Below, in pieces: positions 2,073 through 39,727 of a stretch of DNA of 47,010 nt; position 1 is the stretch's first letter; each line of letters opens with the position of its first letter. Source of the stretch: an uncultured Alistipes sp. (GTDB taxonomy: Bacteria > Bacteroidota > Bacteroidia > Bacteroidales > Rikenellaceae); the NCBI GenBank assembly GCA_944321185.1, contig CALUKH010000012.1, positions 1 through 47,010 of the forward strand, written 5' to 3'. Made by a program: the position numbers and the translations under genes. The notes below the pieces were generated by a model, which was not told the DNA's origin, did not search any database, and saw only the letters and a list, made by a program, of their open reading frames with translations.

Positions 2073-5000
2073 TTAGTTGAATTTCGGCTTGTCACCCATG
2101 TAAACCGGGTGCTGCTGCTTGTTCGAGGCGGCGAACTCCAGGGCCGAGGAGAACGACCGGGTTTCGTCGCCGGCCGTCGATGCATCGAGAACATCGAGTG
2201 TCTTGAACTCCTCGAACGAATAGCTTTCGCCCGCATACTCCTTGATCCGCTTGACGATGGCCTCGCGCGAGATGGCCGAGAAGTACGGAATATTGTTGTT
2301 CATGCAGCTGTTCGGTTCGGAGCGGAAGACCCCGCGCATATGCATGTAGCCGCCTTCGTAGATATCGACCAGATTCGAATACTGCGGATCGAAGATCAGA
2401 TGGTTCCAGGGTACGTCGTACATGTTTCCCGTTAGGGAGAGGTTCTCATACCAGCCCCGCGACTTGTTAGCATTGAACTCTTCAACATGCGGGCAGCACG
2501 TACAGGAACAAGTCTGGATAAACTCATTGTGATAGATGTACTCATCACCCAACTTACCGAAACCGTGGCCGCCGGCTTCGTGCTGAACCAACCCGCGGAA
2601 ATCATAGGGATAGACATCCTCGCTCATCGGGCAGCAGGCAATCGCCGACCCGTCGCCCCACATGTAGGTGATTCCGCCGTAATCGGCCGTATTTTCGATC
2701 AGCGTGATCAACGTCCGACCAATCCGATCTTCGGTGACGGTCGGAGCCTTGCAGGCATATTCGAAGCAGATCTGCTCGTCGGGAGTAATACCTCCAAGCG
2801 CATAGGCCGATCCGAATTTCGACTCCCGGATGGTGTTCACATCCCCCACCCCGCTGTCGGGCGAGAGGCCGAAGACGGAGTAGACGTTGAAGTAGTCGCG
2901 ATAGGTCTTGTAAGGCTCCACGGCGAAGAAGTAACCGATGGCCTCGTTTACGGCATCAAGGTATTTGCCCTCGGAGATATCCTTGGCATCGAAGCAGTCG
3001 CCCATGAATACCAGGTCGACGCCGGCGCCCTTCATCGCCGTCTGTACGGTCATCACCTCGCCGTCGCCATACTGATAGTCGTATTGTTCGACCTTGGTGC
3101 GGGTCCGGTAATCCTTCCCGTTGAGCAGGAAGACCACCTCGCCTTCGCGATATCCGGCCCCCTTGGGCTGATCAGCCACCGTGACGGTCACCTCGACCTT
3201 GCCCGTTCCGCTCATCGGTTCCACCATCACCCAGTCGGGTTTGGACTCCACGCTCCACACCTCTCCGCTCGGAGCACGCAGCACCAGCGTCTTCGTGAGC
3301 GATGCATTCAGCGACCGGAACAGATTGCGGGAGATCGAGAAGTCGTGATGAGCCGCAAAGCGCTTGAACTCCATCCATCCGGGCGCCGTACTGTAGCTGT
3401 TGACCGACGCTTCAGGCACCTCGACCGTAAAGTTGTCCTTCGCAACACCATTGAATGCCGAAGCATCCAACTGCGGAGGATTTTGCGCTTCGCAGACAAT
3501 CGAGTTGAGTTGGAAACAATCCGTAAAAGCATTCTCCCGGATAAACTCCACATTCTTGGGAATAACCACACCCTCCAACTGGGAGCAACCGGAGAAAAGA
3601 CCAGCACTGACTGAAATAATATCCTCGGGCAGCTCAACAATACCAGTCAATCGGAAATTTCTGCTAAAAGCCTCATTTCCAAGCACAGCCAATCCTTGAG
3701 GCAATTTCAACTCCCCGGAGAATAAATTACCAGCAAAAGCGCCTTCACCTATAACCGTCAAATTATCAGGCAACTGCAAGGATCCTCGGAATTTACAATT
3801 AGAAAAAGCATTTGCCCCGATTTCAGCCAAATCCTTTGATAAATTCAATTGACCATTGAGACCTGAGCAACCGGAAAAACAGGAATCCCCTATTTTTGTA
3901 ATACCATGAGGAATAGTAAGCGAACCTGTAAATCCGGAACAGCTCAAAAAAGCTTCTGTTCCCAACTTTTTTAATCCGCTGGGAAGTTGCAGATTTCCGG
4001 TAAATCCCGTACAAGCACCAAATGCGAGCTCACCTATTTCCTCCACAGAAGCAGGAATAATCAAATCTCCAGAAAGTCCTTTACAAAAGAAAAACACATT
4101 TGAGCCAATCAGAATCAATGATTTAGACAACGTCAACGTTCCATTTAATGGACAATTATAGAATGCAAAATTTCCAATTTCGGTAACTCCATTCGGAATA
4201 ATCAATGACCCAGACAAATTTGTTTTCAAAAATGCCCTATCTCCAATTCGCGTAATATTTTCAGGAAAAACAAAACGGATAAGGGTTGATTTTCCATCGA
4301 ACGCTCCATACGGGATCTCATTAGCGGCATAACTGCCATATTTCGCAATCTCGACCTCCCGCAGATTGAGCGACTGCAAAACCGTCATTTCGTCCCGCAT
4401 CATCACAAAATCCCGCTGGTCGATGGTTCCGGTCACCTTGAGATTCTTGACCTTCGTATAGTCCTTCCCGGCGGCCGTGATGCACTCCTTCAACGTTCCG
4501 GGTTCCGGACAGTCGACGATGATGTATTCACGCGCCGTTGCGTCGTGCGAGACGTTATCCGTCTCCCACGCCGTGATGCTCTCGCCCAGCAGTTTGAACT
4601 CCAGACCGCTGGCGCTCTTCTTCGAGACCTCGATGGTAAACTTGTGCAGCTTGCCGCTCACATAGCTGAACGGCTCGCTCTTGCGGAAGACATAGGGCAC
4701 GCCGTCGACCGTAATGCTGAATAACGGCGTCGAGGCCGCTACGGTCTGCGGAACCACCACGGCCCGGAAATCACCGTCCCGCTTGTAGGGGATGGTACCC
4801 GTGGTCGGCACCTTGCCGGTCGGAGTCACCTCGCCGGTCGAAAGGTCGATCACCGCCTTGCGGATCGTGTTGGTCACCAGGACGCTCTTCTCCAACTGAC
4901 CAAATTCGCCGGCGTCAAAGCCCGTACCCTCCGTCAGCGTCACCAGCACACCGGCCATCCGGTGCTGGAACTTGACGGCGATACGCTGCGTGGTCGGAGC

Positions 5001-5486
5001 GATGTCGGCCGCCTTGCCCCACAGGAAATCGCTGGCTTCGTATCCGCCCAGAAGCCCGTTGGCAGCCTCGGTCGACTGGTCCTTGGACACCTCGAAAGCA
5101 TAGGAATCGACCGACGACGGCGAACCGTAGGGATAATAGCCGATGATGTCGACGTGCGTATTCTTGTCCCGGAAGTAGACCGACTCGTCGGGGATCCACT
5201 TGCCGTTGGCCTCGTCGTAGACATAACGGACGTTATCGGCCTGGTTACCCTCGGTGACAAGCTGGCCGGGAAGCCCCTCTTCATAATTGACGACGTAGAT
5301 GCCCACGCCGTCACCGTCGCAGAAGCCCTCGTCGTTGACACGCGTGGTGGCGACCTGTTCGATCTCGTTGAAGAGCTGGATGGGATACGACTGGTCGACC
5401 GCAACGGACATTTCGTCGGGCTCGTACGAGCAGGCACCCAACACGACCGTGAGGATGCCGCATATCAATAAACGCTTGGATTTCAT
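2073..5486 (-). CDS. Fimbrillin-LRR-BACON-M64 metallopeptidase fusion lipoprotein
   Basis: The protein has 1137 residues. Residues 1-19 are a lipoprotein signal peptide (VVLGAC). Residues ~30-300 are a fimbrillin-like domain with VATTRV, IIGYYPYG and GGYEASDFLWGK. Residues ~390-680 are BspA/LRR_5-type leucine-rich repeats (repeating pattern LxxIGxxAFxxCxxLxGxLxIP). Residues ~725-800 are BACON-like (WSVESKPDWVMVEPMSGTG). Residues ~810-1110 are an M64 (IgA-peptidase-like) domain with HEAGGHGFGKLGDEY (H969, E970, H974, D981). M64 enzymes are secreted zinc endopeptidases; some cleave IgA. The chain would therefore be a surface-anchored protease with adhesive modules. It lies between two fimbrillin genes in one operon. 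The LRR core (3640-4310) is clearly AT-richer than the flanks. The zinc motif reads HExxxH rather than HExxH. Confidence 0.85.
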   Translation of the reverse strand: MKSKRLLICGILTVVLGACSYEPDEMSVAVDQSYPIQLFNEIEQVATTRVNDEGFCDGDGVGIYVVNYEEGLPGQLVTEGNQADNVRYVYDEANGKWIPDESVYFRDKNTHVDIIGYYPYGSPSSVDSYAFEVSKDQSTEAANGLLGGYEASDFLWGKAADIAPTTQRIAVKFQHRMAGVLVTLTEGTGFDAGEFGQLEKSVLVTNTIRKAVIDLSTGEVTPTGKVPTTGTIPYKRDGDFRAVVVPQTVAASTPLFSITVDGVPYVFRKSEPFSYVSGKLHKFTIEVSKKSASGLEFKLLGESITAWETDNVSHDATAREYIIVDCPEPGTLKECITAAGKDYTKVKNLKVTGTIDQRDFVMMRDEMTVLQSLNLREVEIAKYGSYAANEIPYGAFDGKSTLIRFVFPENITRIGDRAFLKTNLSGSLIIPNGVTEIGNFAFYNCPLNGTLTLSKSLILIGSNVFFFCKGLSGDLIIPASVEEIGELAFGACTGFTGNLQLPSGLKKLGTEAFLSCSGFTGSLTIPHGITKIGDSCFSGCSGLNGQLNLSKDLAEIGANAFSNCKFRGSLQLPDNLTVIGEGAFAGNLFSGELKLPQGLAVLGNEAFSRNFRLTGIVELPEDIISVSAGLFSGCSQLEGVVIPKNVEFIRENAFTDCFQLNSIVCEAQNPPQLDASAFNGVAKDNFTVEVPEASVNSYSTAPGWMEFKRFAAHHDFSISRNLFRSLNASLTKTLVLRAPSGEVWSVESKPDWVMVEPMSGTGKVEVTVTVADQPKGAGYREGEVVFLLNGKDYRTRTKVEQYDYQYGDGEVMTVQTAMKGAGVDLVFMGDCFDAKDISEGKYLDAVNEAIGYFFAVEPYKTYRDYFNVYSVFGLSPDSGVGDVNTIRESKFGSAYALGGITPDEQICFEYACKAPTVTEDRIGRTLITLIENTADYGGITYMWGDGSAIACCPMSEDVYPYDFRGLVQHEAGGHGFGKLGDEYIYHNEFIQTCSCTCCPHVEEFNANKSRGWYENLSLTGNMYDVPWNHLIFDPQYSNLVDIYEGGYMHMRGVFRSEPNSCMNNNIPYFSAISREAIVKRIKEYAGESYSFEEFKTLDVLDASTAGDETRSFSSALEFAASNKQQHPVYMGDKPKFN

Positions 5487-5548
5487 ACCGTTTGTTGTTT
5501 CAACTGATCCAATGGGTGAGTCCGTAAGCCCACCCTACAACCCGAAGG

Positions 5549-6436
5549 TTATTCGGCAGCACCGCCGTTATCCGTCTCGTCGATCTCCCAGTCGCCGATA
5601 CCAATATCGACACCGCTGCTGGCCTTGTTGACGGTAACCGTAAATTTATGCTGCGTATTGGCCTTGAAGGTGAAGCCCTTGGCCAGCGTATAGTCCACGC
5701 CGTCGACGGTAATCGTAATCAGATTCGAGCCGTCGGCCACGGTCTGCGGAACGAGCAGCGCCCGGTAATAGGTTCCCTCGTTGTAGGGGACGATCTCCGT
5801 TGCCACACCGGTGGCCGTAGCGACACCCGTCCGGAGATCAATCGTGGCCGAAGCCTTCACGTTGCAGATGCGCACCGACTTGGTGGCAGCAGCCAGCGTC
5901 TCCTCGGTGAAGCCCTTGCCCGGGGTCACGTAGATCAACATGTTGCTCATCGAGCGATTGGTGATGATGGGCACGGCACTGGCCGTCGGGCTGATGCCGG
6001 TAGCCTTGCCCCAGAGGAACTCCGAGGCCTTGTAATCGGCCTGCAGCGACTGGTCGCTCTTGACCGAGAAGGGATAGGCCGCAATGTCGGCGGGCTTGCC
6101 GTAGGGATAGTAGCAGTAGAAATCGGCCTTCGTCGTCTCATCCTTCCAGTAGATCTCCGAATCGGGAGTCCACGATCCGGCGCAGGTGAAGCACATGTTG
6201 TCGACGTAGTTGCCCGAAGGCTGCAGAGCCGTGGATGAGGATCCTTCGTTGTTGACAACGTAGATACCCACCTTGTCGCCCGTTTCGTAGGCCGTATCCG
6301 TCACACGGGTCCAGACATTCATCGAGATGTTGATGGGGATCTTCGCCGGTTCGGGCGTCGGTTCCGTACCGTTGTCCGACGAGGAGCAGGAAGCCAGGCA
6401 CAAAAGTGCCGCGAGAGAGAGGAAAAATCTTGTCAT
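5549..6436 (-). CDS. Fimbrillin family lipoprotein
   Basis: The chosen start is the ATG at 6434-6436, giving MTRFFLSLAALLCLASCSSSD, a clean lipoprotein signal peptide; an in-frame ATG 30 nt further upstream would add an unlikely leader. The 295-residue product has NVWTRVTD near the N-terminus (possible Arg processing site), then GDKVGIYVVN, FYCYYPYGKP, DYKASEFLWGK and a C-terminal beta-rich domain ending in an acidic EIDETDNGG tail. It belongs to the fimbrillin/Mfa-like group of pilin-type lipoproteins. It is the first gene of the operon, 62 nt ahead of the M64 fusion gene, with a -7 element at 6555-6562. Confidence 0.85.
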   Translation of the reverse strand: MTRFFLSLAALLCLASCSSSDNGTEPTPEPAKIPINISMNVWTRVTDTAYETGDKVGIYVVNNEGSSSTALQPSGNYVDNMCFTCAGSWTPDSEIYWKDETTKADFYCYYPYGKPADIAAYPFSVKSDQSLQADYKASEFLWGKATGISPTASAVPIITNRSMSNMLIYVTPGKGFTEETLAAATKSVRICNVKASATIDLRTGVATATGVATEIVPYNEGTYYRALLVPQTVADGSNLITITVDGVDYTLAKGFTFKANTQHKFTVTVNKASSGVDIGIGDWEIDETDNGGAAE

Positions 6437-6554
6437 AGGAGCATATTTAAGGGTTAGACAATTCATTTCCGACCATTACTAAATATTTAAAGAACCGGGC
6501 TCCATTCGGGAGCGAGTTGCAGGGATATATATTAAGGTATAGTCGAATCTGGAG

Positions 6555-6562
6555 CAAAGATA
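6555..6562 (-). promoter_or_regulatory. -7 element of the fimbrillin/M64 operon promoter
   Basis: The minus strand reads TATCTTTG, a perfect TAnnTTTG match, giving a start near 6548 and a leader of about 110 nt before the first fimbrillin ATG. No good TTTG element is seen 19-21 nt upstream, so a regulator or alternative sigma factor may contribute. Confidence 0.55.
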
Positions 6563-6723
6563 CATATATTCCTACAAGATTGTCCTTTTTTATTGAAATA
6601 CAAACTTGTCATTCCACGCCCCGGACAAAATGCTTCGCTTTCAGTCCCACGGTACGCAGCAACCGCTCAAACAGCCCCTCAGTACGGTCTCCAAAAGATT
6701 GCGGAAAATATTATCCGAAAAAG

Positions 6724-6754: not shown

Positions 6755-7217
6755 CAATACCGTATGCCAAACAGGGAGCAACGCGGAAATTCAGCGTGGG
6801 CCAGTCGGAAACGACGAAAATAAAGGCCCGGAATTTATTGAGAGGCAAATGCATAACTTTCAACCAGAAGAGCCTCTCTCTCCAAAATCACAACTTTCCA
6901 AGGTATTTCCGACGAAAGATTTTATTAAATCCAGATCCAAATACCAACCAAACAATCACCCCGAGCAGTAATCCACCTTCACTCTTATTATTCATAATCG
7001 GATCAATTTACATCATTCAAGTTTTGAATCGACCTCTTCGGAGTCTACCATTCCCTCCATTACGCGCACTCCGTACATACCCAATCATCCCCGCCTCATC
7101 AAAGAATATTCTGTCACAAGTATCTCCACATATCTACGCCACACGATACGACCGACTAGAGATATGACCTGCTTATAATTATTTACTACAAGGATGTTAT
7201 AATAAAATAAAAACTAT

Positions 7218-7225
7218 TATCTTTG
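7218..7225 (+). promoter_or_regulatory. -7 element upstream of the ECF sigma / RyR locus
   Basis: TATCTTTG at 7218-7225 matches TAnnTTTG. The predicted start near 7232 leaves a leader of about 150 nt before the sigma-factor ATG at 7384. The upstream element is weak, which would suit a conditionally expressed or autoregulated locus. Confidence 0.5.
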
Positions 7226-7383
7226 TACAACGATTTATTGTCACGGGTCGTACATCTGCAATTCGGAGGACAAAAAGCACCACAAGGGACCGACACATAG
7301 AGGATTCCGTCTGTCAGAGGGCTTTGAGCAAAATCTTGCTCCAAATATTCACGATGCAGTCTACCGCCCCACCAGAAATCACA

Positions 7384-7959
7384 ATGAAAACAGACACCCC
7401 CATCATAGAAGCTCTGATCGCCCGGGACGAAGCTGTAACACGGCAGTTCTTTTTCAACAATTGTCGTCCGTTGTTCCGGAGTATCATCCACCACGTATTC
7501 TCTTACGAGGTCGATTACGACGAATTTGTCAACGAATTTTATCTGTACCTGCTCGAGAATGACGCTTGCCGTCTGCGCCAATTCGAGGGACGTAGTTCGA
7601 TCTACCAATGGCTGAAGGTCGTAGCCATCCGATATTTCATTTCGAAACGCAACCGGATGATAGATATGGAGCACCGGAATCCTCCTTTAGAAAACATGGT
7701 ACGAAAGCGCGGCAATGACGAAGAGCGAACGACAACGGCAAGAATCGATGTAAGGTCGATCCTTGCACAATTGCCGAACCAACGCTACGCCCGTGTGATT
7801 GAACGGCTGATGCTGGATGAGGCAGAGCCGCGCCTCGTAGCCCTCGAACTGGAGACGAATGTCAACAACCTGTACAACCTGAAGAAGCGGGCCATGGCAG
7901 CTCTGACACGAATCATAATCAAAGAAATCGGGAACGATGAAGAAAAAATCGGCAAATAA
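7384..7959 (+). CDS. ECF-like RNA polymerase sigma factor
   Basis: This 191-residue protein has a sigma-70 region 2 (VDYDEFVNEFYLYLLENDAC, then FEGRSSIYQWLKVVAIRYFI, the core-binding and -10-melting helices). A C-terminal region 4-like helix-turn-helix follows (LAQLPNQRYARVIERLMLDE, then LETNVNNLYNLKKRAMAALT). No region 1 or 3 is seen, as in ECF factors. In-frame starts exist at 7324 (TTG) and 7354 (ATG); 7384 is preferred because the conserved part begins just after MKTDTPIIEALIARDE. It leads the locus and its last 23 nt overlap the next gene. It probably directs transcription of this locus or a small regulon. Confidence 0.85.
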   Translation: MKTDTPIIEALIARDEAVTRQFFFNNCRPLFRSIIHHVFSYEVDYDEFVNEFYLYLLENDACRLRQFEGRSSIYQWLKVVAIRYFISKRNRMIDMEHRNPPLENMVRKRGNDEERTTTARIDVRSILAQLPNQRYARVIERLMLDEAEPRLVALELETNVNNLYNLKKRAMAALTRIIIKEIGNDEEKIGK

Positions 7960-9070
7960 ATCCATATCATCAGAGCTTTTTGCCGCTTTTTTGGACGGCA
8001 ACGTCACGGTGCAGGAACTCCAGACAATCCTTGACGCATTGAGCGACGACCCCCGATTGCGCGAAGAGCTGCTCCTCGCCCTGGACGTAGACGAGGAGCT
8101 GGAGACAAACACATCGGATCCGGAGCTGCTTCCGATGACGGCATTGGCGGCCGCATGCACAGCATCGAATTATTGCGTGTTGGAGTGTGAAAAATTCATT
8201 CTCCGACGCCACGGCATTAACTTCAACGCACAACGCCTTCTCGGTCAGTCCGTGGACAAGGGACGGCAGCGCGAGAAAGGGATGGCCTTGCATGCCATCG
8301 GTCAGGACTTGGAGGAGATGGGCCTGATCGTCCGACGCCTCTACCAATGCCGTATGGCCGATATCGAACGGGCATTGACGGCGCATGAGGATGTGATTGC
8401 GGTCGTCGACGGCGGCGAACTGACGGGCGATGCAGCGGCTGAAAAGCGCGAGGATCTGCTGACCGGAGAAGATCCGGACCATGCGGTTGTGGTTCTCGGC
8501 TGTGACAAGGGAGCACAAAGCATCATGCTCTATGATCCGGCCTCGGGCCGTGGGAAGATTACCTGCCCGCTCGAACAGTTCGAAGACGCCTGGCACGATT
8601 CAAAAAACTATCTGGTAACCGTCACAACTCAAGAAGAGATGAACACATATATACCCAAACCGATCGATCTATCGGATGTCGAACTGGCGGACGATCTGAA
8701 CGACCTTCGAGAAGCCATCGCAGAGAATGCACATGAGATCTGGGCCGAGAGCCGACGAAAGGAGGGGTGGAGCTACGGTCCGCGCCGGGACGACGTACTG
8801 AAACAGACCCCCGACATGGTACCCTACTCGCAGCTGCCGGAGAGCGAGAAGAGCTACGACCGGGAGATGGCGATGAAGACCATTAAGCTGTTAAGGAAAC
8901 TGGGCTACGATCTGATCAAACGCGAGGAGACCGAACTTTACCGGGTACTGAAGCAGCGCCTCGAACATTCGGGCGAAGAGTTCCACTGCCGACGATGCGG
9001 GAATGTCATCTACAAGCATCAGGTTTTCTGCGACAAGTGCGGTCTCGAGCTGAAGATCATCTGGGACTGA
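7937..9070 (+). CDS. Papain-like (C39-like) / RyR domain / zinc-ribbon protein, apparently frameshifted at its end
   Basis: The 377-residue product has four parts. Residues 1-60 are a helical segment (FAAFLDGNVTVQELQTILDA, then DPRLREELLLALD) that resembles the N-termini of Bacteroidetes ECF-partner proteins. Residues ~75-235 fit a C39-like papain fold with candidate Cys80, His182 (DPDHAVVVLG) and Asp200 (LYDPASG). Residues ~238-330 are a clear RyR domain (IAENAHEIWA, EGWSYGPRRDD, MVPYSQLPESEKSYDRE). Residues 351-369 are a zinc-ribbon half (CRRCG...FCDKCG). RyR domains occur in animal ryanodine receptors and in bacterial proteins, where they are proposed ligand sensors. The first 23 nt overlap the sigma gene, suggesting coupled translation. 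A second ribbon half continues in the +1 frame to 9170, so the natural product may be about 33 residues longer. The protease assignment is moderate and the RyR assignment is strong. Confidence 0.82.
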   Translation: MKKKSANKSISSELFAAFLDGNVTVQELQTILDALSDDPRLREELLLALDVDEELETNTSDPELLPMTALAAACTASNYCVLECEKFILRRHGINFNAQRLLGQSVDKGRQREKGMALHAIGQDLEEMGLIVRRLYQCRMADIERALTAHEDVIAVVDGGELTGDAAAEKREDLLTGEDPDHAVVVLGCDKGAQSIMLYDPASGRGKITCPLEQFEDAWHDSKNYLVTVTTQEEMNTYIPKPIDLSDVELADDLNDLREAIAENAHEIWAESRRKEGWSYGPRRDDVLKQTPDMVPYSQLPESEKSYDREMAMKTIKLLRKLGYDLIKREETELYRVLKQRLEHSGEEFHCRRCGNVIYKHQVFCDKCGLELKIIWD

Positions 9071-9170
9071 TCTTCGCAACCCGGACAAACGGATCGAGAC
9101 CTATTGTCCAACATGTGGAGGAGCCCTGAGAGGCGATGAATCGTTTTGTCTCCAATGCGAAAAAAATTAA
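9054..9170 (+). pseudogene. Out-of-frame second half of a double zinc ribbon
   Basis: In the frame +1 to the upstream gene, 9054-9170 is open and ends at TAA 9168-9170. It encodes YCPTCGGALRGDESFCLQCE, a textbook zinc-ribbon half, with no in-frame ATG before it. Together with CRRCG...FCDKCG at the end of the RyR protein it would form a normal double zinc ribbon with about 30 residues between the halves. The next gene starts 29 nt after this TAA, ordinary operon spacing. A one-base indel between about 9051 and 9070, an assembly error, or programmed +1 frameshifting at UGA (9068-9070) would explain it. Confidence 0.7.
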
Positions 9171-9198
9171 AATAGACCAACATGACATAGACAGCCAC

Positions 9199-10077
9199 AT
9201 GATTAAACCAGCAGAATTCATCCATCCCGAAGATGCCGCCGCATTGCGCCAGTTGGAGAGTATTCCGGGCTTTCCGGCCCTGGCCAAAAAGATCTTGGAA
9301 CTCGGCTATGAAAAGTTGATGTACGGTCTCAACATGGCCTCTGCCATCCGTCTCAGCGAGACCCAGCTGCCGGAATTGTACCGGCATCTGCCGCCAATCT
9401 GCGAGAAACTGGGAATTGCCGAACCCGAATTCTATCTGCGGATGGACCCCAATCCCAACGCCTACACGTCGGGCGACACACGCATCTTTATCGTCGTCAC
9501 CTCGGGCCTCGTCGAGATGATGGACGACGAGGAACTCGATGCCGTATTGGCACACGAATGCGGCCACATTCTGTGCCGGCACGTGGTCTACAACATGGTG
9601 GTCCAATATCTGCAGTACGGGCTCGACGCACTGGGCATATTGGGTTCGATCGCCAAACCGGTCGAATATGCCTTGCTGTACTGGAGCCGCAAGGCCGAAC
9701 TATCGTGTGACCGCTGCGGCAGCATCATCACCACACCGGATGTCGTGGCACGGACGATGGCTCGACTTGCCGGCGGACCGCAGTCGATCACCCGCCATCT
9801 GAACATGGAGGAGTGGGCCCGACAGGCCGATCGCTACGACGAAATCCAGAACGACGGTCTGTGGAACAAGGCTTTGCAACTGTCAGTCATCATCGGCCAG
9901 GATCACCCGTTCAGTGCAGTTCGTGTACGGGAGATTCTCAAATGGGGCCGAAGTGCACAATACCGACAGTTGATGGAGGGTCTCCAGGCTGCAGCATCGG
10001 GCAAACATTGCCCACATTGCGGGCGATCCGTCTGCACGGACTGGAATTTCTGCAAATATTGCGGCACCAAACTGTAA
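9199..10077 (+). CDS. M48-family metallopeptidase with C-terminal zinc ribbon
   Basis: This 292-residue protein carries LAHECGHILCRHVV, the HExxH motif (H119, E120, H123), and a downstream glutamate ligand in WSRKAELSCDRCG (E167, with D171), as in M48 (HtpX/Ste24-type) peptidases. Residues ~136-165 are hydrophobic and may contact or enter the membrane. Residues 271-288 form a zinc ribbon (CPHCG...FCKYCG). The start at 9199 (MIKPAEFIHPED) is preferred over the in-frame ATG at 9136, which lies inside the out-of-frame zinc-ribbon coding of the previous gene. M48 enzymes cleave membrane or misfolded proteins. Here the enzyme is the second predicted protease of the locus and shares the C-terminal ribbon with two other members. 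Confidence 0.87.
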   Translation: MIKPAEFIHPEDAAALRQLESIPGFPALAKKILELGYEKLMYGLNMASAIRLSETQLPELYRHLPPICEKLGIAEPEFYLRMDPNPNAYTSGDTRIFIVVTSGLVEMMDDEELDAVLAHECGHILCRHVVYNMVVQYLQYGLDALGILGSIAKPVEYALLYWSRKAELSCDRCGSIITTPDVVARTMARLAGGPQSITRHLNMEEWARQADRYDEIQNDGLWNKALQLSVIIGQDHPFSAVRVREILKWGRSAQYRQLMEGLQAAASGKHCPHCGRSVCTDWNFCKYCGTKL

Positions 10078-10102
10078 ATGACATTTAAAAATCAGGACAA
10101 CT

Positions 10103-10360
10103 ATGTTTTTCAATGAAAACGGGATGCTGAACCTTGACGAGACGGTCGCCAACAACGCATCATTCAAGAAGATCATGGAGGACGGGATCGTCACCGAAGA
10201 GGAGATCCGCACCCAATCGGAGAAGGTCCTCGCCATGCTCCACGCCATGGAGACAAAATACGACGAGGAGCAGCTTCGTCAGATCAAGGATCTGATCGTG
10301 GAATCGAGCGTACTCTACGCGGCATACAATCTTTATTCAATTCAGAATCTAAGCAAATAA
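10103..10360 (+). CDS. Small conserved-looking helical protein
   Basis: This 85-residue acidic protein is predicted to be mostly helical (SFKKIMEDGIVTEEEIRTQS, then YDEEQLRQIKDLIVESSVLY). There is no signal peptide, membrane segment or metal motif. It sits 25 nt after the M48 gene and 5 nt before the membrane zinc-ribbon gene, on the same strand and so probably in the same transcript. The family is not recognised. It could be an adaptor or an immunity-like partner, but that is only inference from position. Confidence 0.7.
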   Translation: MFFNENGMLNLDETVANNASFKKIMEDGIVTEEEIRTQSEKVLAMLHAMETKYDEEQLRQIKDLIVESSVLYAAYNLYSIQNLSK

Positions 10361-10365
10361 CAGAC

Positions 10366-10872
10366 ATGTCAACATTCAATACGAAACAATTGCTGCACGG
10401 ATCGCCCGTGCTCATACCAACCATCGCACAACGCATCGAGGCCGATTTCCAGGGTGAAGGCTATGAAGTGACCATGGACTCGCTGAGCAGCGGAGGCTAC
10501 GAAATTTCGATCACCAAGGGAGGTCTGTTCAAGGCCGTACTGGGGATGAAGACAGCCTTGAACATAACATTGCTGCCACAGGAGAACGACATTCGCTTCG
10601 AAGCCGGCGTAGGCATTTGGGGACAGCAGGCTATTCCGACGATTATCTCGATGCTGTTTTTCTGGCCGGTCCTCATCACGCAGATCTGGGGTATGATCCA
10701 GCAGTCGAAACTGGACGACAAGGCTTTGGATATCGCGCGAGAGGTCATCGCAGCCAATAACACTCCCACAGGCGAAGTCCCGACGCATGGCTCGGCCAAG
10801 TTCTGCACCTCATGCGGGACAGCCAACGTGGCGACGGCCCGTTTCTGCTGCGGGTGCGGCAAACCGCTCTGA
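10366..10872 (+). CDS. Membrane-associated zinc-ribbon protein
   Basis: This 168-residue protein has an N-terminal alpha/beta region (residues ~10-85, with GYEVTMDSLSSGGYEISITKG) and one hydrophobic segment (residues ~88-110, AIPTIISMLFFWPVLITQIW). It ends in a zinc ribbon (CTSCG at 147-151, CCGCG at 161-165). The ribbon type matches those ending the M48 and RyR proteins. The arrangement suggests a cytoplasmic domain and ribbon tethered to the inner membrane. Function is not recognised; the ribbons may let these proteins assemble with one another. Confidence 0.75.
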   Translation: MSTFNTKQLLHGSPVLIPTIAQRIEADFQGEGYEVTMDSLSSGGYEISITKGGLFKAVLGMKTALNITLLPQENDIRFEAGVGIWGQQAIPTIISMLFFWPVLITQIWGMIQQSKLDDKALDIAREVIAANNTPTGEVPTHGSAKFCTSCGTANVATARFCCGCGKPL

Positions 10873-10943
10873 AAAGGGCAAAGCAGGCGATCGGCCGCGA
10901 TCCATTTACCCGGGGAAGCATGAACCAATAACAGCACAAGCAA

Positions 10944-11960
10944 ATGAAACCGAAGTTGACCCTGTTTGTCGCCGGATCCAAAGAGCTCAAGGAAGAACGG
11001 ATGATCTGCCGTTCCGTATGTAACACCTTGCAGAATCAATGGGGAACAATCCTCACCCGAACATTTGAAGATTTCCCAGAGACCATTTCGACCGAAGGGC
11101 ATCAAAATGAATATAACCTGTTCATCCGGGATGAAGCAGATGTTGTTCTTTTCATCTTTTCGGGCAAGGTCGGTACAATTACGATTTCAGAGTTCAGACA
11201 CGCATATCAATCCTTCACTCAAAACGGTCATCCGAAGATATTGGTTTACATAGACACCCAACAAGCGAACTCTCCAGAGATAACAGATCTCAAGAACAGT
11301 CTCGCCCAACAAGGCCAATACTACAAGGAATATCATGATCTTGAGGAGCTGGAGCGCATGGTGGACAAACACCTGACAAGAATTTTGATCGAACAGACGA
11401 AGAACCGGGAACAACCGGGCAAACTGTCACCCGTCATGAAAGTATTGGGCATCTCCGCATGGATTGTCGGCATATGGTGCTTTTTAGCGGTTTGCGGCGG
11501 TATTGGCATGTATATCCACGACCGAAACATGTCCGATCAGAAATGTGCCAGTTTAGCCACAAAATACATGGAATCGGGAAGAGATGGAGAATTGCTTTAT
11601 TATTTTCCCGACGAGACGTTCATCTACAATCAAGCAAGCGAAACCGTCGATGTACTGGCTCGAAAAAACACCTCTTCCACAAGCGATCTGTCCATTGCGA
11701 AACTGGAGCACGTCACCTTCGGTGCCACGGCATCGATTCTGTTGGCCCGCCTCATGAAATTCAAAGCAAAAGGGAATGCCAAAACCATGCTGGGGTATGC
11801 AGCGGCCGTTGCTGCCGGCGCAATCGGATTCGGGGTGGGATGTGTCATTGAACAGATGCTGTTCCCTCCACAATATTCTCAACCGATGAAAGAATATCTT
11901 TCCAATGCCGCCAACTGGGAACATGCGGTTGATCAACACCAACAGACTCATTGGTTCTAA
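10944..11960 (+). CDS. TIR-like/Rossmannoid domain membrane protein
   Basis: This 338-residue protein begins with an alpha/beta domain (residues 1-~150): LTLFVAGSKELKEERMICRS, then EYNLFIRDEADVVLFIFSGK, VGTITISEFRHAYQ and HPKILVYID. This order (first strand with a small turn, aDvvlFif, G-x-T-x-x-E-F, then a kpkilvY strand) resembles TIR-like, DUF4062-like and nucleoside deoxyribosyltransferase-like folds. Glu83 in SEFRHAY sits where the catalytic glutamate of NAD-cleaving TIR domains would lie. Two hydrophobic segments follow (~165-190 and ~282-305), the second Gly/Ala-rich. It is encoded 71 nt after the zinc-ribbon membrane protein. If catalytic, it could be a nucleotide-hydrolysing or signalling effector; binding only is equally possible. 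Confidence 0.65.
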   Translation: MKPKLTLFVAGSKELKEERMICRSVCNTLQNQWGTILTRTFEDFPETISTEGHQNEYNLFIRDEADVVLFIFSGKVGTITISEFRHAYQSFTQNGHPKILVYIDTQQANSPEITDLKNSLAQQGQYYKEYHDLEELERMVDKHLTRILIEQTKNREQPGKLSPVMKVLGISAWIVGIWCFLAVCGGIGMYIHDRNMSDQKCASLATKYMESGRDGELLYYFPDETFIYNQASETVDVLARKNTSSTSDLSIAKLEHVTFGATASILLARLMKFKAKGNAKTMLGYAAAVAAGAIGFGVGCVIEQMLFPPQYSQPMKEYLSNAANWEHAVDQHQQTHWF

Positions 11961-11970
11961 CAATTCTGAC

Positions 11971-13365
11971 ATGACAAGAAAATCCAAACGTCTTATCTTC
12001 ATATGGAGCCTGATTCTTGTTACAGGTCTACTCGTTATCTGGAACCTTAACCGACACTGGAAGATTCAGGAAGAAAAAGATCGGATCGCTCAAGATTTGG
12101 CATCGAGAGCATGCATCCAGGGAGATAGTTGCATGGTAGCTAACGACTTGCGCTTGGCATCGAAGTTCTATACCAGTTCTTTCAGCAGAAATCCAACCGA
12201 CAGCATAGTGGCAAGGCTTATAACCTGCGAACAGAGGCAAGGCAACACGGCCGAAGCATTGAAATGGCTTGACGAGTTGGAGAAACAAAGCAGAAAGAGT
12301 GATTTCACGGCATTGCGTCGCAGCAATATCATTCTGCAATCAGGAGACAGCACACGGGCACTGCAACTCCTCGACAGTATCCTTGCCAGACCCATCCGAC
12401 TGAAGAAAAGCCGATTCGTCCAATCTTTACTCGACGCATGGCTACACTCGAACAAAGATTATACAAAAGCTACCAACTATTACTGCTATTATTGTGATTA
12501 TCTGGGTAAATTGATGGTTCTTAATAGTCGCCTGAGTATCTCAAGCAAGGAAGACGTCTTCAGACAAGGAGCTGTGCTGTTTCATTTAGCCGAGGATCAG
12601 GAGGATGATTACGAGGTCATGAATGAATATCTCGAGATGTTGCGAGAGAACTCGACTGTGTTCTGGAAGATTCTGCGAAAAGGATGGATGAGCTGGGGCA
12701 AAAACGATCTGGATCTCCATATTCTCTATTCAACAGGGTTTTCCAACTATGATTACCATAATCTCATCGATCTTGTCAGTTCCATCAAATGGAGGATATT
12801 CAATAACTTGATCATTCAGAAACACATCAACCAAGGCCATACTGAAGCTGTAGATTATGCTCAACAGATCACACAATCCAACTCCTGCAATACCGACGCT
12901 CGCTACAATTTTCACAAATTTATATACGGCATCTACCTGGGAGCAAGCAATAACGATCTATTCCCCAGCACACTGACCGCAAACGACCTCGACAGCATAC
13001 TATACCAGTCGTTGGATACGCTGCAGCGCATACAACCGGCCTACCTTACCATCGGTCAACGTTTCATGCTATCCCTGGGAGATAAAGATAAATTCCATAT
13101 GACCGGAGACAAATTCATAGGACCCGCCATCATTTTGCAATGCAACGATTGGAATTGGAGAAACGACAGTCTCACGTTCCCGCAATATGTCGAACGACAC
13201 AAGAAAGATCTGAAAACCATCAAATACCTCAATGACAATTTCAAGGCGAGCGAATCATCCACCGAAGGCCAGAAATTCGGACTTATGATCAGCTTCATAC
13301 CGTCCAACACATACGAAATGAATCTCCTTCAAGCCGAATACGAAAGACAGATAAGTCCCCGCTAA
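11971..13365 (+). CDS. TPR-like single-pass membrane protein
   Basis: The start at 11971 (MTRKSKRLIFIWSLILVTGL) gives a membrane anchor at residues ~7-26 preceded by basic residues; the longer frame from 11905 overlaps the previous gene. The 464-residue product then has helical pairs typical of tetratricopeptide repeats (DLRLASKFYTSSFSRNPTDS, NTAEALKWLDELEKQ, DSTRALQLLDSILAR). A less recognisable, aromatic-rich C-terminal half follows, with many Asn and Asp. It lies 10 nt after the TIR-like gene and appears to end the locus. A scaffold or ligand-capture role on the periplasmic side is plausible but unproven. Confidence 0.72.
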   Translation: MTRKSKRLIFIWSLILVTGLLVIWNLNRHWKIQEEKDRIAQDLASRACIQGDSCMVANDLRLASKFYTSSFSRNPTDSIVARLITCEQRQGNTAEALKWLDELEKQSRKSDFTALRRSNIILQSGDSTRALQLLDSILARPIRLKKSRFVQSLLDAWLHSNKDYTKATNYYCYYCDYLGKLMVLNSRLSISSKEDVFRQGAVLFHLAEDQEDDYEVMNEYLEMLRENSTVFWKILRKGWMSWGKNDLDLHILYSTGFSNYDYHNLIDLVSSIKWRIFNNLIIQKHINQGHTEAVDYAQQITQSNSCNTDARYNFHKFIYGIYLGASNNDLFPSTLTANDLDSILYQSLDTLQRIQPAYLTIGQRFMLSLGDKDKFHMTGDKFIGPAIILQCNDWNWRNDSLTFPQYVERHKKDLKTIKYLNDNFKASESSTEGQKFGLMISFIPSNTYEMNLLQAEYERQISPR

Positions 13366-13372
13366 CACACGA

Positions 13373-13405
13373 TGCCAGATTTCATATCCCAACCACTATC
13401 TGGCA
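13373..13405 (+). terminator. Weak hairpin after the RyR/TIR-like locus
   Basis: TGCCAGAT (13373-13380) pairs with ATCTGGCA (13398-13405) around a 17-nt loop, 8 nt after the TPR gene. There is no T tract, so it may be an RNA-stabilising or weak termination structure. Confidence 0.3.
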
Positions 13406-13647
13406 GACGGAGGGGGCTTCACCAACCGAGCATTTGCTGGCATGACATTCGATCACAACCCTGCTGCAAGGAGTGCTCCGCAACCTGGACACCCACTGAC
13501 GAACCATAACTGCCCGAGGTCTCGCGCCACGCGCCACAGCAACCAAAGGCTGTCACCTTCAAAGAAAAAGTATCGAAAACCGGATCCCAAAGTATCATCC
13601 GATGGAAATTCATGCGATATTTGCAGCGTGATTTGAACAACGAATCT

Positions 13648-29627: not shown

Positions 29628-29716
29628 AGAGAAACGTGTTGGTTGAACATGAGTGGTTGAATATACAAAAAATCCGAACAAACAAAAAACGTCCACATAC
29701 AGAAAATGGCTGCGGG

Positions 29717-29747
29717 TTGCGATTTTGCGGGTTTTTCACTACTTTTG
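29717..29747 (+). promoter_or_regulatory. lysS promoter
   Basis: TTG (29717-29719), a 20-nt spacer and TACTTTTG (29740-29747) fit the Bacteroidota consensus; the leader before the lysS ATG is about 30 nt. Confidence 0.6.
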
Positions 29748-29782
29748 CACGGATATACCACGAAACATCAAAAACAGACGAT

Positions 29783-31507
29783 ATGGCAATCGAACTCAGT
29801 GAACAGGAACAGCTTCGCCGACAGTCGCTCCAGGCACTGCGCGACCTGGGCATCGACCCCTACCCCGCCGCCCGCTACGATGTGACGGCTACGGCACGCG
29901 AGATCGCCGAAGGCTATGACGACGAAAAGAAGAACTTCCAGGATGTCCGCATCGCCGGCCGCATCATGTCGCGCCGCATCATGGGCAGCGCCTCGTTCTT
30001 CGAACTGCAGGACCACACGGGCCGCATCCAGGTCTACATCCGCCGCGACGATATCTGCCCCGAGGGCGACCCGACGCTCTACAACACGGTCTTCAAGAAA
30101 CTGCTCGACATCGGCGACTTCATCGGCGTCGAAGGTTTCGCCTTCCGCACCAACACGGGCGAACTGTCGGTTCACTGCAAACGTTTCACGGTTCTGTCGA
30201 AATCGATCCGCCCGCTGCCCGTCGTCAAGGAGAAGGACGGCAAGACGTTCGATGCCCTGACCGACCCCGAGATCCGCTACCGGCAGCGCTACCTCGATCT
30301 GATCGTCAACCCGCAGGTGAAGGAGATCTTCATCAAACGCGCCAAGATCATCACCACGATGCGCGAATACTTCGACTCGAAAGGGTATCTCGAGGTCGAG
30401 ACGCCGATCCTGCAGCCCATTCCGGGCGGAGCCGCCGCGCGTCCCTTCATCACGCACCACAACTCGCTGGATATCGATCTCTACCTGCGCATCGCCACGG
30501 AGCTCTACCTCAAACGGCTGATCGTCGGCGGATTCGACGGTGTCTACGAGCTGGGCAAGAACTTCCGCAACGAGGGCATGGACCGCACACACAACCCCGA
30601 ATTCACCTGCATGGAGATCTACATCGCCTACAAGGATTACCGCTGGATGATGGAGTTCACCGAGCAGATGCTCGAACGGATCGCCCTGGCGGTCAACGGC
30701 ACGACGGAGATCGAGATCGACGGCCGTCAGGTCTCGTTCAAGGCGCCGTTCCGCCGCGTGACGATGACCGACGCCATCCGCGAAAAGACCGGCTACGACA
30801 TCACCGGCCAGACGGAAGAGCAGCTGCGCGAAGCCTGCAAGCGGCTCAACGTCGAGATCGACGACACGATGGGCAAGGGCAAACTCATCGATGCCATCTT
30901 CGGCCAGTACTGCGAAGGGGATTTCATCCAGCCGACGTTCGTCTGCGACTACCCGATCGAGATGTCGCCGCTGTGCAAGCGCCACCGCGACAATCCGGAT
31001 CTGACCGAGCGTTTCGAACTCTTCGTCAGCGGCAAGGAGCTCTGCAACGCCTACTCGGAGCTGAACGACCCGATCGATCAGCTGGAGCGCTTCCAGGAGC
31101 AGCTGCGCCTCTCGGAAAAGGGCGATGACGAGGCGATGTTCATCGACATGGACTTCGTGCGCGCCCTGGAGTACGGCATGCCGACCTGCTCGGGCATGGG
31201 CATGGGCATCGACCGTCTGACGATGTTCATGACGGGCCAGAGCTCCATCCAGGAGATCCTGCTCTTCCCGCAGATGCGCCCCGAAAAGAAACCCGTGAAC
31301 GATCCGGTCGAGGCCTATACGGCCATCGGTGTGCCGGAGGAGTGGGTGCCCGTGATCCAGAAGATGGGCTACCTGACGGTCGATTCGCTGCGCAAACTCG
31401 CCCCGGGCAAGTTCTTCAACGACCTCTGCGGCTTCAACAAGAAGAACAAACTCGGACTGAAGGCCCCTTCGATGGAGGAGGTCAAGGCGTGGTGCAGCGA
31501 AGCGTAA
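29783..31507 (+). CDS. lysS: Lysine-tRNA ligase, class II
   Basis: The start at 29783 (MAIELSEQEQLRRQSLQALR) is the conserved N-terminus; the longer frame upstream crosses the promoter. The 574-residue protein has an OB-fold anticodon-binding domain (VRIAGRIMSRRIMGSASFFE, LQDHTGRIQVYI), then class II motifs: motif 2 FRNEGMDRTHNPEFTCMEIY and motif 3 GMGMGIDRLTMFMTG. It attaches lysine to tRNA-Lys. After motif 3 there is a ~70-residue C-terminal extension (AYTAIGVPEEWVPVIQKMGY, then LRKLAPGKFFNDLCGFNKKN) that is usual in Bacteroidota LysRS and looks like a helical nucleic-acid-binding unit. tpiA follows after 60 nt. Confidence 0.97.
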   Translation: MAIELSEQEQLRRQSLQALRDLGIDPYPAARYDVTATAREIAEGYDDEKKNFQDVRIAGRIMSRRIMGSASFFELQDHTGRIQVYIRRDDICPEGDPTLYNTVFKKLLDIGDFIGVEGFAFRTNTGELSVHCKRFTVLSKSIRPLPVVKEKDGKTFDALTDPEIRYRQRYLDLIVNPQVKEIFIKRAKIITTMREYFDSKGYLEVETPILQPIPGGAAARPFITHHNSLDIDLYLRIATELYLKRLIVGGFDGVYELGKNFRNEGMDRTHNPEFTCMEIYIAYKDYRWMMEFTEQMLERIALAVNGTTEIEIDGRQVSFKAPFRRVTMTDAIREKTGYDITGQTEEQLREACKRLNVEIDDTMGKGKLIDAIFGQYCEGDFIQPTFVCDYPIEMSPLCKRHRDNPDLTERFELFVSGKELCNAYSELNDPIDQLERFQEQLRLSEKGDDEAMFIDMDFVRALEYGMPTCSGMGMGIDRLTMFMTGQSSIQEILLFPQMRPEKKPVNDPVEAYTAIGVPEEWVPVIQKMGYLTVDSLRKLAPGKFFNDLCGFNKKNKLGLKAPSMEEVKAWCSEA

Positions 31508-31567
31508 CCGCCCGCAAAACCCGCAAAACAGAAACTCAACACAAACTGTCTAAACACAAATAAAGTT

Positions 31568-32326
31568 ATGAGAAAGAAAATCGTAGCCGGCAACTGGAAG
31601 ATGAATACGCTTCCGGCCGAAGGAGTGGAACTGGCAAAGGGCGTCGTCGCAGGTCGCGGCGAGGTATGCTCGTGCGTGAACTTCATCGTCTGCCCGCCGT
31701 TCACCCACCTGTCGATGGTTGCCGAGGCCCTGAAGGGTTCGGACATCGAACTGGGTGCCCAGAACTGCGCCGCCGAGGCCAAGGGTGCCTATACGGGTGA
31801 AGTCGCAGCCTCGATGATCGCCGCCCTGGGTTGCAAATACGTGATCCTCGGCCACTCGGAGCGCCGCCAATACTACGGCGAGACCTCCGCAACGCTCAAC
31901 AAGAAGATGGAGCAGGCCTATGCCAACAACCTCACGCCGATCTACTGCGTGGGTGAGAACCTCGAGGAGCGCGAGGCCGGCAAACACTTCGACGTGGTGA
32001 AGGCCCAGATCGAGGAGGTAGTCTACAACCTCACCGAGGAGCAGTTCAAGAACCTTGTGATCGCCTACGAGCCCGTATGGGCCATCGGTACGGGCAAGAC
32101 CGCCACGGCTGACCAGGCTCAGGAGATTCACGCCTACATCCGCAAGGTACTGGCCGAGAAGTTCGGTGCCGCAGCCGCCGAGTGCCCGATTCTCTACGGA
32201 GGCTCGTGCAAGCCGGCAAACGCCGCCGAAATCTTCGCCAAGGAGGATGTCGACGGAGGTCTGATCGGTGGTGCCGCCCTGAAGGCAGCCGATTTCCTGG
32301 CCATCGGCAAAGGTTTCCAGAAATAG
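31568..32326 (+). CDS. tpiA: Triosephosphate isomerase
   Basis: This 252-residue TIM barrel has all catalytic residues: GNWKMN (Lys11), ILGHSERR (His96), [12 protein letters not shown] (Glu168, mobile loop), and the phosphate-binding [11 protein letters not shown] and [10 protein letters not shown]. It interconverts dihydroxyacetone phosphate and glyceraldehyde 3-phosphate in glycolysis. It is probably cotranscribed with lysS and ends in an unusual purine-rich 3' region. Confidence 0.97.
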
Positions 32327-32330
32327 TCCA

Positions 32331-32459
32331 TTACACCGGGGGGGGGTGAATGAAGGGAGAGAGAGACACTCGCACGAGAGAGAAACGAGGAGAGAGAAAA
32401 AAGAGAGGAGAGAGGAGAGAGGAAGAAAACTCCCGGAAGAAGAACCCCCGAAGGTGTAA
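32331..32459 (+). repeat. Long-range inverted repeat with purine-rich loop and G9 tract
   Basis: TTACACC plus nine G (32331-32346) can pair with CCCCC...GGTGTAA (32445-32459), enclosing about 100 nt made mostly of GA/GAA units (32347-32440). It starts 5 nt after the tpiA stop and precedes the terminator at 32474-32505, so it would form the 3' untranslated region of the lysS-tpiA transcript. Confidence 0.6.
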
Positions 32460-32473
32460 ACACTGTAGAGACG

Positions 32474-32505
32474 AAGCGTCCGATCGATGGATCGGACGCT
32501 TTTTT
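32474..32505 (+). terminator. Strong rho-independent terminator of lysS-tpiA
   Basis: AAGCGTCCGATC (32474-32485), loop GATG and GATCGGACGCTT (32490-32501) form a perfect 12-bp stem followed by TTTT. Confidence 0.9.
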
Positions 32506-32606
32506 AATGCGGACACATTGCGTCAGAAACCGTCCAAAAACACGGTGGCCCTATTCAAAATCGGATCCTCCAACCCGGAAACCGATACAGAAACAGAAAG
32601 TTTTGC

Positions 32607-32614
32607 TATCTTTG
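32607..32614 (+). promoter_or_regulatory. -7 element of the MaoC-like gene
   Basis: TATCTTTG at 32607-32614, 22 nt before the ATG; no good upstream TTTG is visible. Confidence 0.5.
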
Positions 32615-32636
32615 TAAAAACCGAAAACATTGCAAC

Positions 32637-33101
32637 ATGAGCCGACTGATTATCCACGATTTCGACGATTTTGCCCGCTATACGGGACAGGAACTGGGCG
32701 TTTCGGACTACCTGAAAATCACCCAGGAGCAGATTAATCTCTTTGCCGACGCCACGCTCGACCACCAGTGGATCCACGTGGATCCCGAACGCGCCCGGAC
32801 CGAAAGCCCCTACAAGAAGACCATTGCCCACGGATATCTGACCCTCTCGCTGCTGCCCTACCTGTGGGGACAGGTCGTGGAGGTGCAGAACGTGAAGATG
32901 CTGGTCAACTACGGCATCGAGAAACTGCGCTTCAACCAGGCGGTGACGGTCGACAGCGAGATCCGGCTGCGGGCCACGCTGCTCTCGATCACCAATCTGC
33001 GCGGCATTGCCAAGGCCGAGATCAAGGTCTCGCTCGAAATCCGCGACTGCCCGAAGACGGCCATGGATGCCACGGTCGTCTTCCTCTACCACTTCAAATA
33101 G
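32637..33101 (+). CDS. MaoC-like hydratase/dehydratase
   Basis: This 154-residue hotdog-fold protein has ITQEQINLFADATLDHQWIH and VDPERARTESPYKKTIAHGY, the R-hydratase/MaoC motif (Asp and His in A-D-A-T-x-D-x-Q-W-I-H). It then has LTLSLLPYLWGQVVEVQNVK and RFNQAVTVDSEIRLRATL. Such enzymes hydrate enoyl-CoA or enoyl-ACP; the substrate is not clear here. It is monocistronic, followed by a strong terminator. Confidence 0.88.
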   Translation: MSRLIIHDFDDFARYTGQELGVSDYLKITQEQINLFADATLDHQWIHVDPERARTESPYKKTIAHGYLTLSLLPYLWGQVVEVQNVKMLVNYGIEKLRFNQAVTVDSEIRLRATLLSITNLRGIAKAEIKVSLEIRDCPKTAMDATVVFLYHFK

Positions 33102-33138
33102 ACAGGCAGGACAGCCCGTCCCCCCCCGGCATACAAAA

Positions 33139-33178
33139 ACTCCGGATGCTCCCGAAAGGGCTTGCATCCGGAGTTTTT
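33139..33178 (+). terminator. Terminator of the MaoC-like gene
   Basis: ACTCCGGATGC (33139-33149) pairs with GCATCCGGAGT (33164-33174), followed by TTTT. An eight-C run (33120-33127) precedes it. Confidence 0.88.
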
Positions 33179-33259
33179 CATCCGCCCGAGAAGCGCATAT
33201 TTACCGGCAGTCGTGCGCACGGCACCATTCATGCGATTCTCCGGGCCTCAAAACGAGGA

Positions 33260-34666: not shown

Positions 34667-34670
34667 TTAA

Positions 34671-35663: not shown

Positions 35664-35686
35664 AATTGCGTGAATTTGTTTGATTA

Positions 35687-36295: not shown

Positions 36296-36344
36296 TGTTG
36301 TGACAATTTAATAAATCGTGAAAAAATTTCTCCGCAAGCGGGCG

Positions 36345-36734: not shown

Positions 36735-36747
36735 AATTCCTTAAAGA

Positions 36748-37128: not shown

Positions 37129-37159
37129 ATTGAAATTTTGTCTTTTTTAACTGATTAAA

Positions 37160-37276: not shown

Positions 37277-37292
37277 TTTTCGAGCGTTCTAA

Positions 37293-37511: not shown

Positions 37512-37517
37512 AGAGTT

Positions 37518-38294: not shown

Positions 38295-38329
38295 TGAAGT
38301 ACTATGCTAAAAACTCTTCGGAAAAACTC

Positions 38330-39706: not shown

Positions 39707-39727
39707 AGTTATCGGGTTCTAAGGTTC

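Follow-up and report, generated by a model that had tools for sequence, protein, structure and literature searches.

A conserved, patchily distributed sigma factor/C39-RyR module of Bacteroidales with conflict-type partners

Why would one run of genes join a sigma factor to a peptidase fused to an RyR domain, a second peptidase and a series of membrane proteins? The question is raised by seven consecutive plus-strand open reading frames (ORFs), at 7381-13365, in a 47,010-nucleotide (nt) stretch of an uncultured Alistipes sp. (contig CALUKH010000012.1, positions 1 to 47,010; hereafter the window), which a sequence-only reading had put forward as a candidate undescribed system, possibly a membrane-associated proteolytic response triggered by stress or phage. 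Our analysis confirms the run, shows that its genes are conserved and patchily distributed, finds no earlier description within the literature searched, and leads us to place the locus among the conflict systems centered on TIR domains and nucleotide signaling. From these data we infer a mechanism in which the locus would be a conditional conflict locus of Bacteroidales, most likely anti-phage, whose RyR domain senses a signal derived from nicotinamide adenine dinucleotide (NAD) and controls both the C39 protease and the sigma factor; this reading may well be right, and may slightly more easily be wrong.

All seven genes are present on the predicted strand, each overlapping the next or separated from it by a short gap, and their order recurs in other genomes. 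ORFs were called mechanically, so that the calls omit some small genes and include some spurious ones. The features of the run are as follows.

7218 to 7225, + strand: TATCTTTG, TAnnTTTG box of the -7 type, lying upstream of the run and read from the sequence
7381 to 7959, + strand: divergent sigma factor of the extracytoplasmic function (ECF) type, 192 amino acids (aa), matching TIGR02937; opens the conserved sigma/regulator pair
7937 to 9070, + strand: the regulator (C39-RyR-ribbon), with a helical domain (residues 1-62), a C39 part (74-234; C80/H182/D200), an RyR domain (about 234-330) and a C-terminal zinc ribbon
8732 to 8860, + strand: RyR ligand-site residues H266, W269, T291 and D308, equivalents of H75, W78, H100 and D117 of the phage protein RyDEP
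9069 to 9170, + strand: second zinc-ribbon fragment, out of frame, between the regulator and M48 genes
9199 to 10077, + strand: M48 metallopeptidase (PF01435), 292 aa, with HECGH and a C-terminal zinc ribbon (alignment A5)
10103 to 10360, + strand: S85, 85 aa, part of the M48-S85-S168 module (alignment A4)
10366 to 10872, + strand: S168, 168 aa, with a small alpha/beta domain, a membrane helix and a C-terminal zinc ribbon (alignment A3)
10944 to 11960, + strand: protein with a likely TIR-like domain (residues 1-160, conserved E83) and two predicted membrane helices
11971 to 13365, + strand (ORF opens at 11905): TPR-like protein with an N-terminal membrane helix and weak TPR Pfam matches

The sigma and C39-RyR ORFs overlap by 23 nt. 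The M48 ORF opens at 9136, and a start equivalent to 9199 is found in six of seven relatives, the seventh starting three residues earlier. Opened at 11905, the TPR ORF would overlap the TIR-like gene by 56 nt; by eye, the in-frame ATG at 11971, directly before the membrane helix and leaving a 10-nt gap, is the more plausible start.

Scanning 84,980 species genomes yielded 166 relatives, from which 79 distinct loci were kept. We compared 78 non-redundant loci, which belong to Bacteroidales wherever the record titles name a group (Alistipes, Prevotella, Barnesiella, Paludibacteraceae and Muribaculaceae, among others), 22 of 100 loci having been removed as duplicates or for want of a regulator with all three parts. 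The sigma gene adjoins the C39-RyR gene in 76 of the 78, the exceptions being L100, which starts at a contig end, and L041, which has no sigma match; the two ORFs overlap in 69 of 77 pairs. The sigma factor of the window matches TIGR02937 with an E-value of 4.6e-9, but its 36.1 bits fall below the curated cut-off of 42.9. In one relative, two sigma/regulator pairs lie within a 12-kb stretch (L115:9316-21336), the second regulator being cut by the locus end. No description of a sigma/C39-RyR module was found among the matches listed from titles and abstract starts of the open-licence literature on RyR domains. A 2015 survey of nucleotide-centered systems may treat RyR domains, and an earlier mention is possible.

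As for the regulator, its structure was predicted with a pLDDT (predicted local distance difference test) of 88.8. The model displays an N-terminal domain of three helices, a papain-like C39 fold with a Cys-His-Asp triad that matches ComA and PCAT1, and an RyR part that matches an RyR domain of B. thetaiotaomicron. The protease had been called papain-like, which holds for the fold; by that predicted fold it is more precisely C39-type, with a Pfam match (PF03412) of 20.4 bits, below the cut-off of 22. Among 76 aligned regulators (alignment A7, which is without L041 and L047), C80 and H182 are kept in 76/76 and D200 in 67/76. A C39 peptidase with 31% identity to that of the window is also encoded on plasmid pANA01 of Anabaena sp. 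90 (L144, 6683-7504), within a gene run that also has members of the Hsp70 and dynamin families.

The RyR domain is recognized with confidence (PF02026, E 4.6e-31, 107 bits, above the curated cut-off). Phage RyDEP is reported, in the accessible part of a preprint, to cleave 2'/3' cyclic ADP-ribose (cADPR) by means of a His/Asp dyad and to contact it through H75, W78, H100 and D117 (PMC13232231). The RyDEP of DyoEdafos (gp78) shares H75, W78 and D117 without exception with the bacterial RyR domains aligned to it, that of the window and six more. The equivalent residues are also well kept among the 76 regulators (H266 76/76, W269 76/76, D308 73/76), position 291 being His in 36, Thr in 28 and Asn in 11. 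They are kept as well in 44 short RyR ORFs of 60-160 aa, which include some fragments and RyR-ribbon pieces (H 41, W 41, D 43, and His at position 291 in 37). In an equal-length PDB match, W269 falls on position 880 of the RyR3 chain, and Trp880 is named, in the text available, as one of the key contacts in the cleft for dantrolene and nucleotides (PMC12627627). Residue identity thus supports a putative nucleotide pocket, with the H, W and D ligand and catalytic residues of RyDEP kept in the RyR domain. A stand-alone RyR gene on a Priestia aryabhattai plasmid (L145, NZ_CP128553.1) adjoins a gene with an adenylate/guanylate cyclase domain, and genes for a Pycsar effector and for a TIR protein lie near it.

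The company that the constant genes keep in other copies is strongly of the conflict type. The slots between them vary, holding TIR combined with Sel1, hexapeptide, SIR2 or FGE-sulfatase domains, nSTAND1 (in L032, L046 and L049), TPR, WG repeats, PEGA, PrsW or, in L031, CreD. One protein joins a TIR domain, just under the cut-off, to an FGE-sulfatase domain (L083:18477-19928), and another joins SIR2-like and TIR domains (L120:11033-12409). We drew 125 downstream operon neighbors at random from 188 eligible (150-700 aa, at most eight genes downstream, loci of the 84,980-genome scan only) and, as a control, 125 of 307 ORFs outside the runs. Among the 25 families listed, the neighbors comprise 38 TIR_2, 10 PrsW, 7 FGE-sulfatase and 5 SIR2_2 proteins. 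The control holds 2 FGE-sulfatases and at most 2 TIR_2 proteins, since TIR_2 is not among its listed families, the last of which have two members. Taken as 38/125 vs 2/125, the TIR_2 enrichment gives a Fisher's p of 7e-11, a value that is too small because related loci share relatives and their neighbors are not independent. PADLOC likewise finds, among the families listed, SAVED_TIR in 18 neighbors vs 2 controls, the latter figure agreeing with the upper bound for TIR_2, and PDC-S66 in 14 vs 2. The control ORFs also include single strong matches to other defense-type models (DrmC and PDC families, for instance), and the contigs are therefore not free of defense genes elsewhere. With a TIR profile of our own, 91 TIR proteins were found in 45 of the 78 operons, and at the catalytic column of their 93-domain alignment, where 91 rows are filled, 89 carry Glu.

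The locus is also patchy. Some match to the regulator profile occurs in 36 of 200 genomes of the window's family, and 17 of the 200, the window's own included, have a copy spanning the C39 part; the other 19 match in the RyR domain only. Two genomes of the same genus have the matching site without the cluster. G212 matches the window on either side of the cluster, at 89% in the upstream flank (5701-6613) and at 88% in the downstream one (from 13566). For G169, the match is 86-88% in the downstream flank and 80% over 157 nt in the upstream one. No DNA match longer than 150 nt to 6860-13565 of the window is found in either, and RyR residues 247-294 are all that could be detected there of the seven proteins. 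The site holds instead about 17 kb with this RyR remnant, a 1514-aa DUF4062 protein (2e-11, 4e-11) and other genes (L138-L139, L136-L137). The cluster is therefore present or absent between near relatives. Such patchiness, together with a gene order that recurs in other genomes, excludes a chance assembly and housekeeping genes alike, the outcomes that would have spoken most directly against the proposal. Phage or plasmid carriage was set aside, since no full-length regulator was found in viral contigs, plasmids or phage records, and no S168 in plasmids. The tree is only suggestive of horizontal transfer: families intermix in it, the labels of metagenome-assembled genomes are uncertain and starred branches do not require a second origin in either group.

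The M48, S85 and S168 genes form a module that accompanies about one third of the loci. Of the stretches fetched for the 78 loci, 31 contain M48, 28 contain S85 and 27 contain S168, and 36 have short RyR ORFs. The order M48-S85-S168 is seen in 21 of the 28 operons with any of the three, two of these with an extra copy. The M48 protein is well above its Pfam cut-off (E 4e-21, 76.1 bits vs 20.3), shares 66-80% identity with seven relatives and, like them, keeps HECGH (8/8). The S168 profile matches 20 of 200 family genomes, 11 over most of the protein and the others in the ribbon only. A fold for S168 was set aside (AlphaFold2 pLDDT 62, with weak START/Bet-v1-like matches), and a profile search of the PDB gave chance-level matches only.

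Three proteins of the window end in a zinc ribbon, as had been claimed. Across the compared loci the ribbon is nearly constant in M48 (31/32) and S168 (26/28) proteins and occurs in only 29/79 C39-RyR proteins. The out-of-frame ribbon at 9069-9170 had been counted as a hidden fourth. A ribbon lies just 3' of the regulator stop in only 2 other of the 78 loci, and this one is therefore probably a local relic, the tail of a lost neighbor gene, rather than a feature of the system; for the same reason, a programmed frameshift that would add a second ribbon is unsupported.

For the first of the two last proteins, the proposed TIR-like domain is likely, though not proved. The protein has no TIR Pfam match (PF13676/PF01582) at E<=1, and a DUF4062 identity was rejected for lack of a PF13271 match at E<=1 in the window's genome (G000); a PDB sequence search also returned nothing. 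Aligned with hhalign to a TIR profile, eight rows of the family gave an E-value of 0.007 and a probability of 5, and ten different rows 2.3e-4 and 45. In this same weak match the family Glu (E83 in the window) falls on the TIR Glu column, and by eye it is kept in 10/10 rows. A homolog in L046 fuses the TIR-like domain to nSTAND1 (E 1e-70). The TPR protein is a singleton, with no relative among the clustered loci. Apart from RyR, M48 and the sigma factor, the Pfam and NCBIfam matches of the run are weak.

A further partner is a family of membrane proteins of 700-900 aa found in 31 of the 78 loci, in 23 of them directly before the sigma gene. Its profile matches the RCK channels DMI1 (5e-5) and CASTOR (1.4e-4), and its members end in an RyR-like domain (hhalign E 6e-6, probability 85). 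A simple pattern search found a TxGYG-like filter in 0 of 28 members, and a PDB sequence search with one member alone found nothing. We also collected 16 RyR-only stretches (L152-L167), from 15 of the 19 family genomes (without G091, G144, G157 and G169) and one RyR place in G190, which has the regulator as well; in the last (L167), a sigma gene is found in addition, together with a fragment of the regulator N terminus. An RCK-type protein is present in 14/16, a TIR in 4/16 and the TIR-like domain of the window in 3/16. Short RyR and RCK genes share the stretch in 14/16, and the pair may be a two-gene RyR-channel system of its own.

How might these parts work together? In the reading we favor, a TIR or TIR-like protein would, on infection, consume NAD+ and produce an ADP-ribose-type nucleotide. 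The RyR domain would hold this nucleotide in the pocket described for phage RyDEP and for Repeat12 of animal RyR, a step suggested by residue identity. Binding would then switch the C39 peptidase together with the helical domain at the N terminus, a domain that would otherwise hold the sigma factor; transcription of conditional genes and proteolysis would follow. The ribbon-bearing M48/S85/S168 module and the exchangeable effectors would act at the membrane; these effectors would be TIR, nSTAND, SIR2 and RCK channel-like proteins in other copies, and the TIR-like and TPR membrane proteins in the window. This reading is supported by the TIR enrichment with its catalytic Glu, the SIR2_2 and nSTAND1 neighbors, the sigma-regulator pairing, the predicted folds of the regulator, the RyR residues and the absence of the cluster at the site in two relatives.

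Several observations weigh against it. The window locus has no canonical TIR gene (one lies elsewhere in the same genome, which is 79% complete) and no channel gene beside it, and 33 of the 78 operons are without TIR, some of their contigs ending early. In the RyR-only stretches the partner of the RyR domain is the channel-like protein more frequently than a TIR; this favors a gating role and cautions against a story of TIR alone. The equivalent of RyDEP H100 is Thr in the window and His in the six other bacterial domains aligned with it. No protein of the run has a strong PADLOC match, the best being PDC-S60 for the TIR-like protein (2.6e-4) and a match of 1.6e-3 for S85, and the N-terminal domain of the regulator matches no anti-sigma Pfam model. 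Control of the operon by its own sigma factor is also unsupported, because crude k-mer and dyad counts found no new ECF-type motif in the upstream regions and ordinary TAnnTTTG boxes abound there (in 52 of 68 operons, against a mean of 12.8 and a maximum of 22 in shuffles). This box is of the type used by the primary sigma factor of Bacteroidota, and the operon probably has a basal promoter.

Such boxes would suit a response to envelope or proteotoxic stress, in which the sigma factor, the proteases (M48, PrsW, C39) and CreD or TPR proteins sense or mend the envelope and TIR genes merely hitchhike in a variable region. The PrsW and CreD neighbors, which weigh against our reading, speak for this explanation, as do the resemblance of the M48 protein to HtpX-type models and the adhesin-like and fimbrillin genes beside the cluster. 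We nevertheless think it unlikely, in view of the excess of TIR_2 neighbors, the near invariance of their catalytic Glu, the nSTAND1 and SIR2_2 proteins and the presence or absence of the cluster between relatives. HtpX is, moreover, a membrane-helix protein, and a simple hydrophobicity scan found no membrane helix in the M48 protein. A different objection concerns the RyR domain itself, which might erase or buffer a signal, cleaving or sequestering TIR-made cADPR to keep the system off, with the sigma/C39 part answering another cue. Equivalents of the H75/D117 dyad are present, short stand-alone RyR genes occur in 36 of 78 loci, and RyDEP degrades its signals, six of eight tested homologs binding them and the others tested not degrading them, according to the accessible preprint text (PMC13232231); domains of this type can thus erase rather than sense, a further point against the reading we favor. 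Fusion of the RyR domain to a protease beside a sigma gene in 76 of 78 loci, the RyR-like domains on RCK membrane proteins, which suggest gating, and the Thr in place of H100 make an eraser doubtful in our view. Finally, many of the best structural matches of the C39 part are peptidase domains of ABC exporters (ComA, PCAT1), and the locus could export or mature small peptides or adhesins. We regard this as highly improbable, there being no ABC transporter in the Pfam-scanned sequences (for the neighbors, among the families listed); double-glycine leaders were not searched for.

How does the locus compare with known systems? The closest published idea is the predicted EACC2/caspase conflict systems with their TPR protein, where an ECF sigma factor is likewise found together with a protease and with domains that can be exchanged (PMC8195603, in the text available). 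These, however, have caspase and EACC2 in place of C39-RyR and M48/S85/S168, the main text of that paper does not contain "RyR", and a Pfam scan of the window proteins found no caspase domain. Thoeris is alike in its TIR with a catalytic Glu, seen here in 45 of 78 operons, in a nucleotide-binding domain fitting a TIR product and in its effector enzymes. The window proteins, in contrast, match neither ThsA nor ThsB (PADLOC, E<=1), and the candidate signal module is an RyR domain coupled to sigma and C39. RyDEP shares the RyR fold with its H, W and D ligand and catalytic residues, but is phage-borne and anti-defense, as reported in the same preprint text (PMC13232231), whereas the domains described here are encoded on contigs of bacteria and are protease-fused and linked to sigma, with Thr at H100 in the window. 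The DUF4062 TIR-like NADases (Swarozyc; PMC13174449, in the part available) offer another distant TIR-like domain with a conserved Glu, and the replacement gene in G169 and G212 is a DUF4062 gene; the window protein differs in having no PF13271 match. The CASTOR/DMI1/Slo2 RCK channels resemble the membrane protein of 31 loci, which differs in its C-terminal RyR-like domain and is not found beside the window copy.

Around the cluster, the minus strand at 2073-6466, directly upstream, encodes an LRR-adhesin-type match (HupY, far below the cut-off) and a fimbrillin-like protein (PF13149, 1.1e-61). The core translation genes lysS, rpoA, secY and rpsC lie at 29636-46255, about 16-33 kb away. Ten other window proteins, a subset of its ORFs, were scanned and proved to be surface, metabolic and core proteins, with no defense gene among them.

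What the locus may mean reaches beyond Alistipes. Binding of cADPR-type immune signals by RyR domains was reported in 2026 for phage anti-defense proteins, with a call to study cADPR and the animal RyR, in the accessible text of the preprint (PMC13232231). In the loci described here the key residues of RyDEP occur on contigs of bacterial origin, within a domain that is joined to a protease, is linked to a sigma factor and frequently has TIR enzymes around it. A broader idea, which we consider improbable though worth stating, is that the RyR domains of bacteria serve on the host side as receptors of TIR-made ADP-ribose or cADPR signals, with a C39/sigma branch and a CASTOR-like RCK branch, that they are an immune ancestor or parallel of the disputed animal cADPR-RyR axis, and that RyDEP is a captured receptor domain. 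If the RyR domain does sense TIR products, these Bacteroidales loci would add a receptor class that reads immune nucleotides, extend TIR immunity by an arm acting through transcription and make it simple to ask whether the link between cADPR and RyR is ancient.

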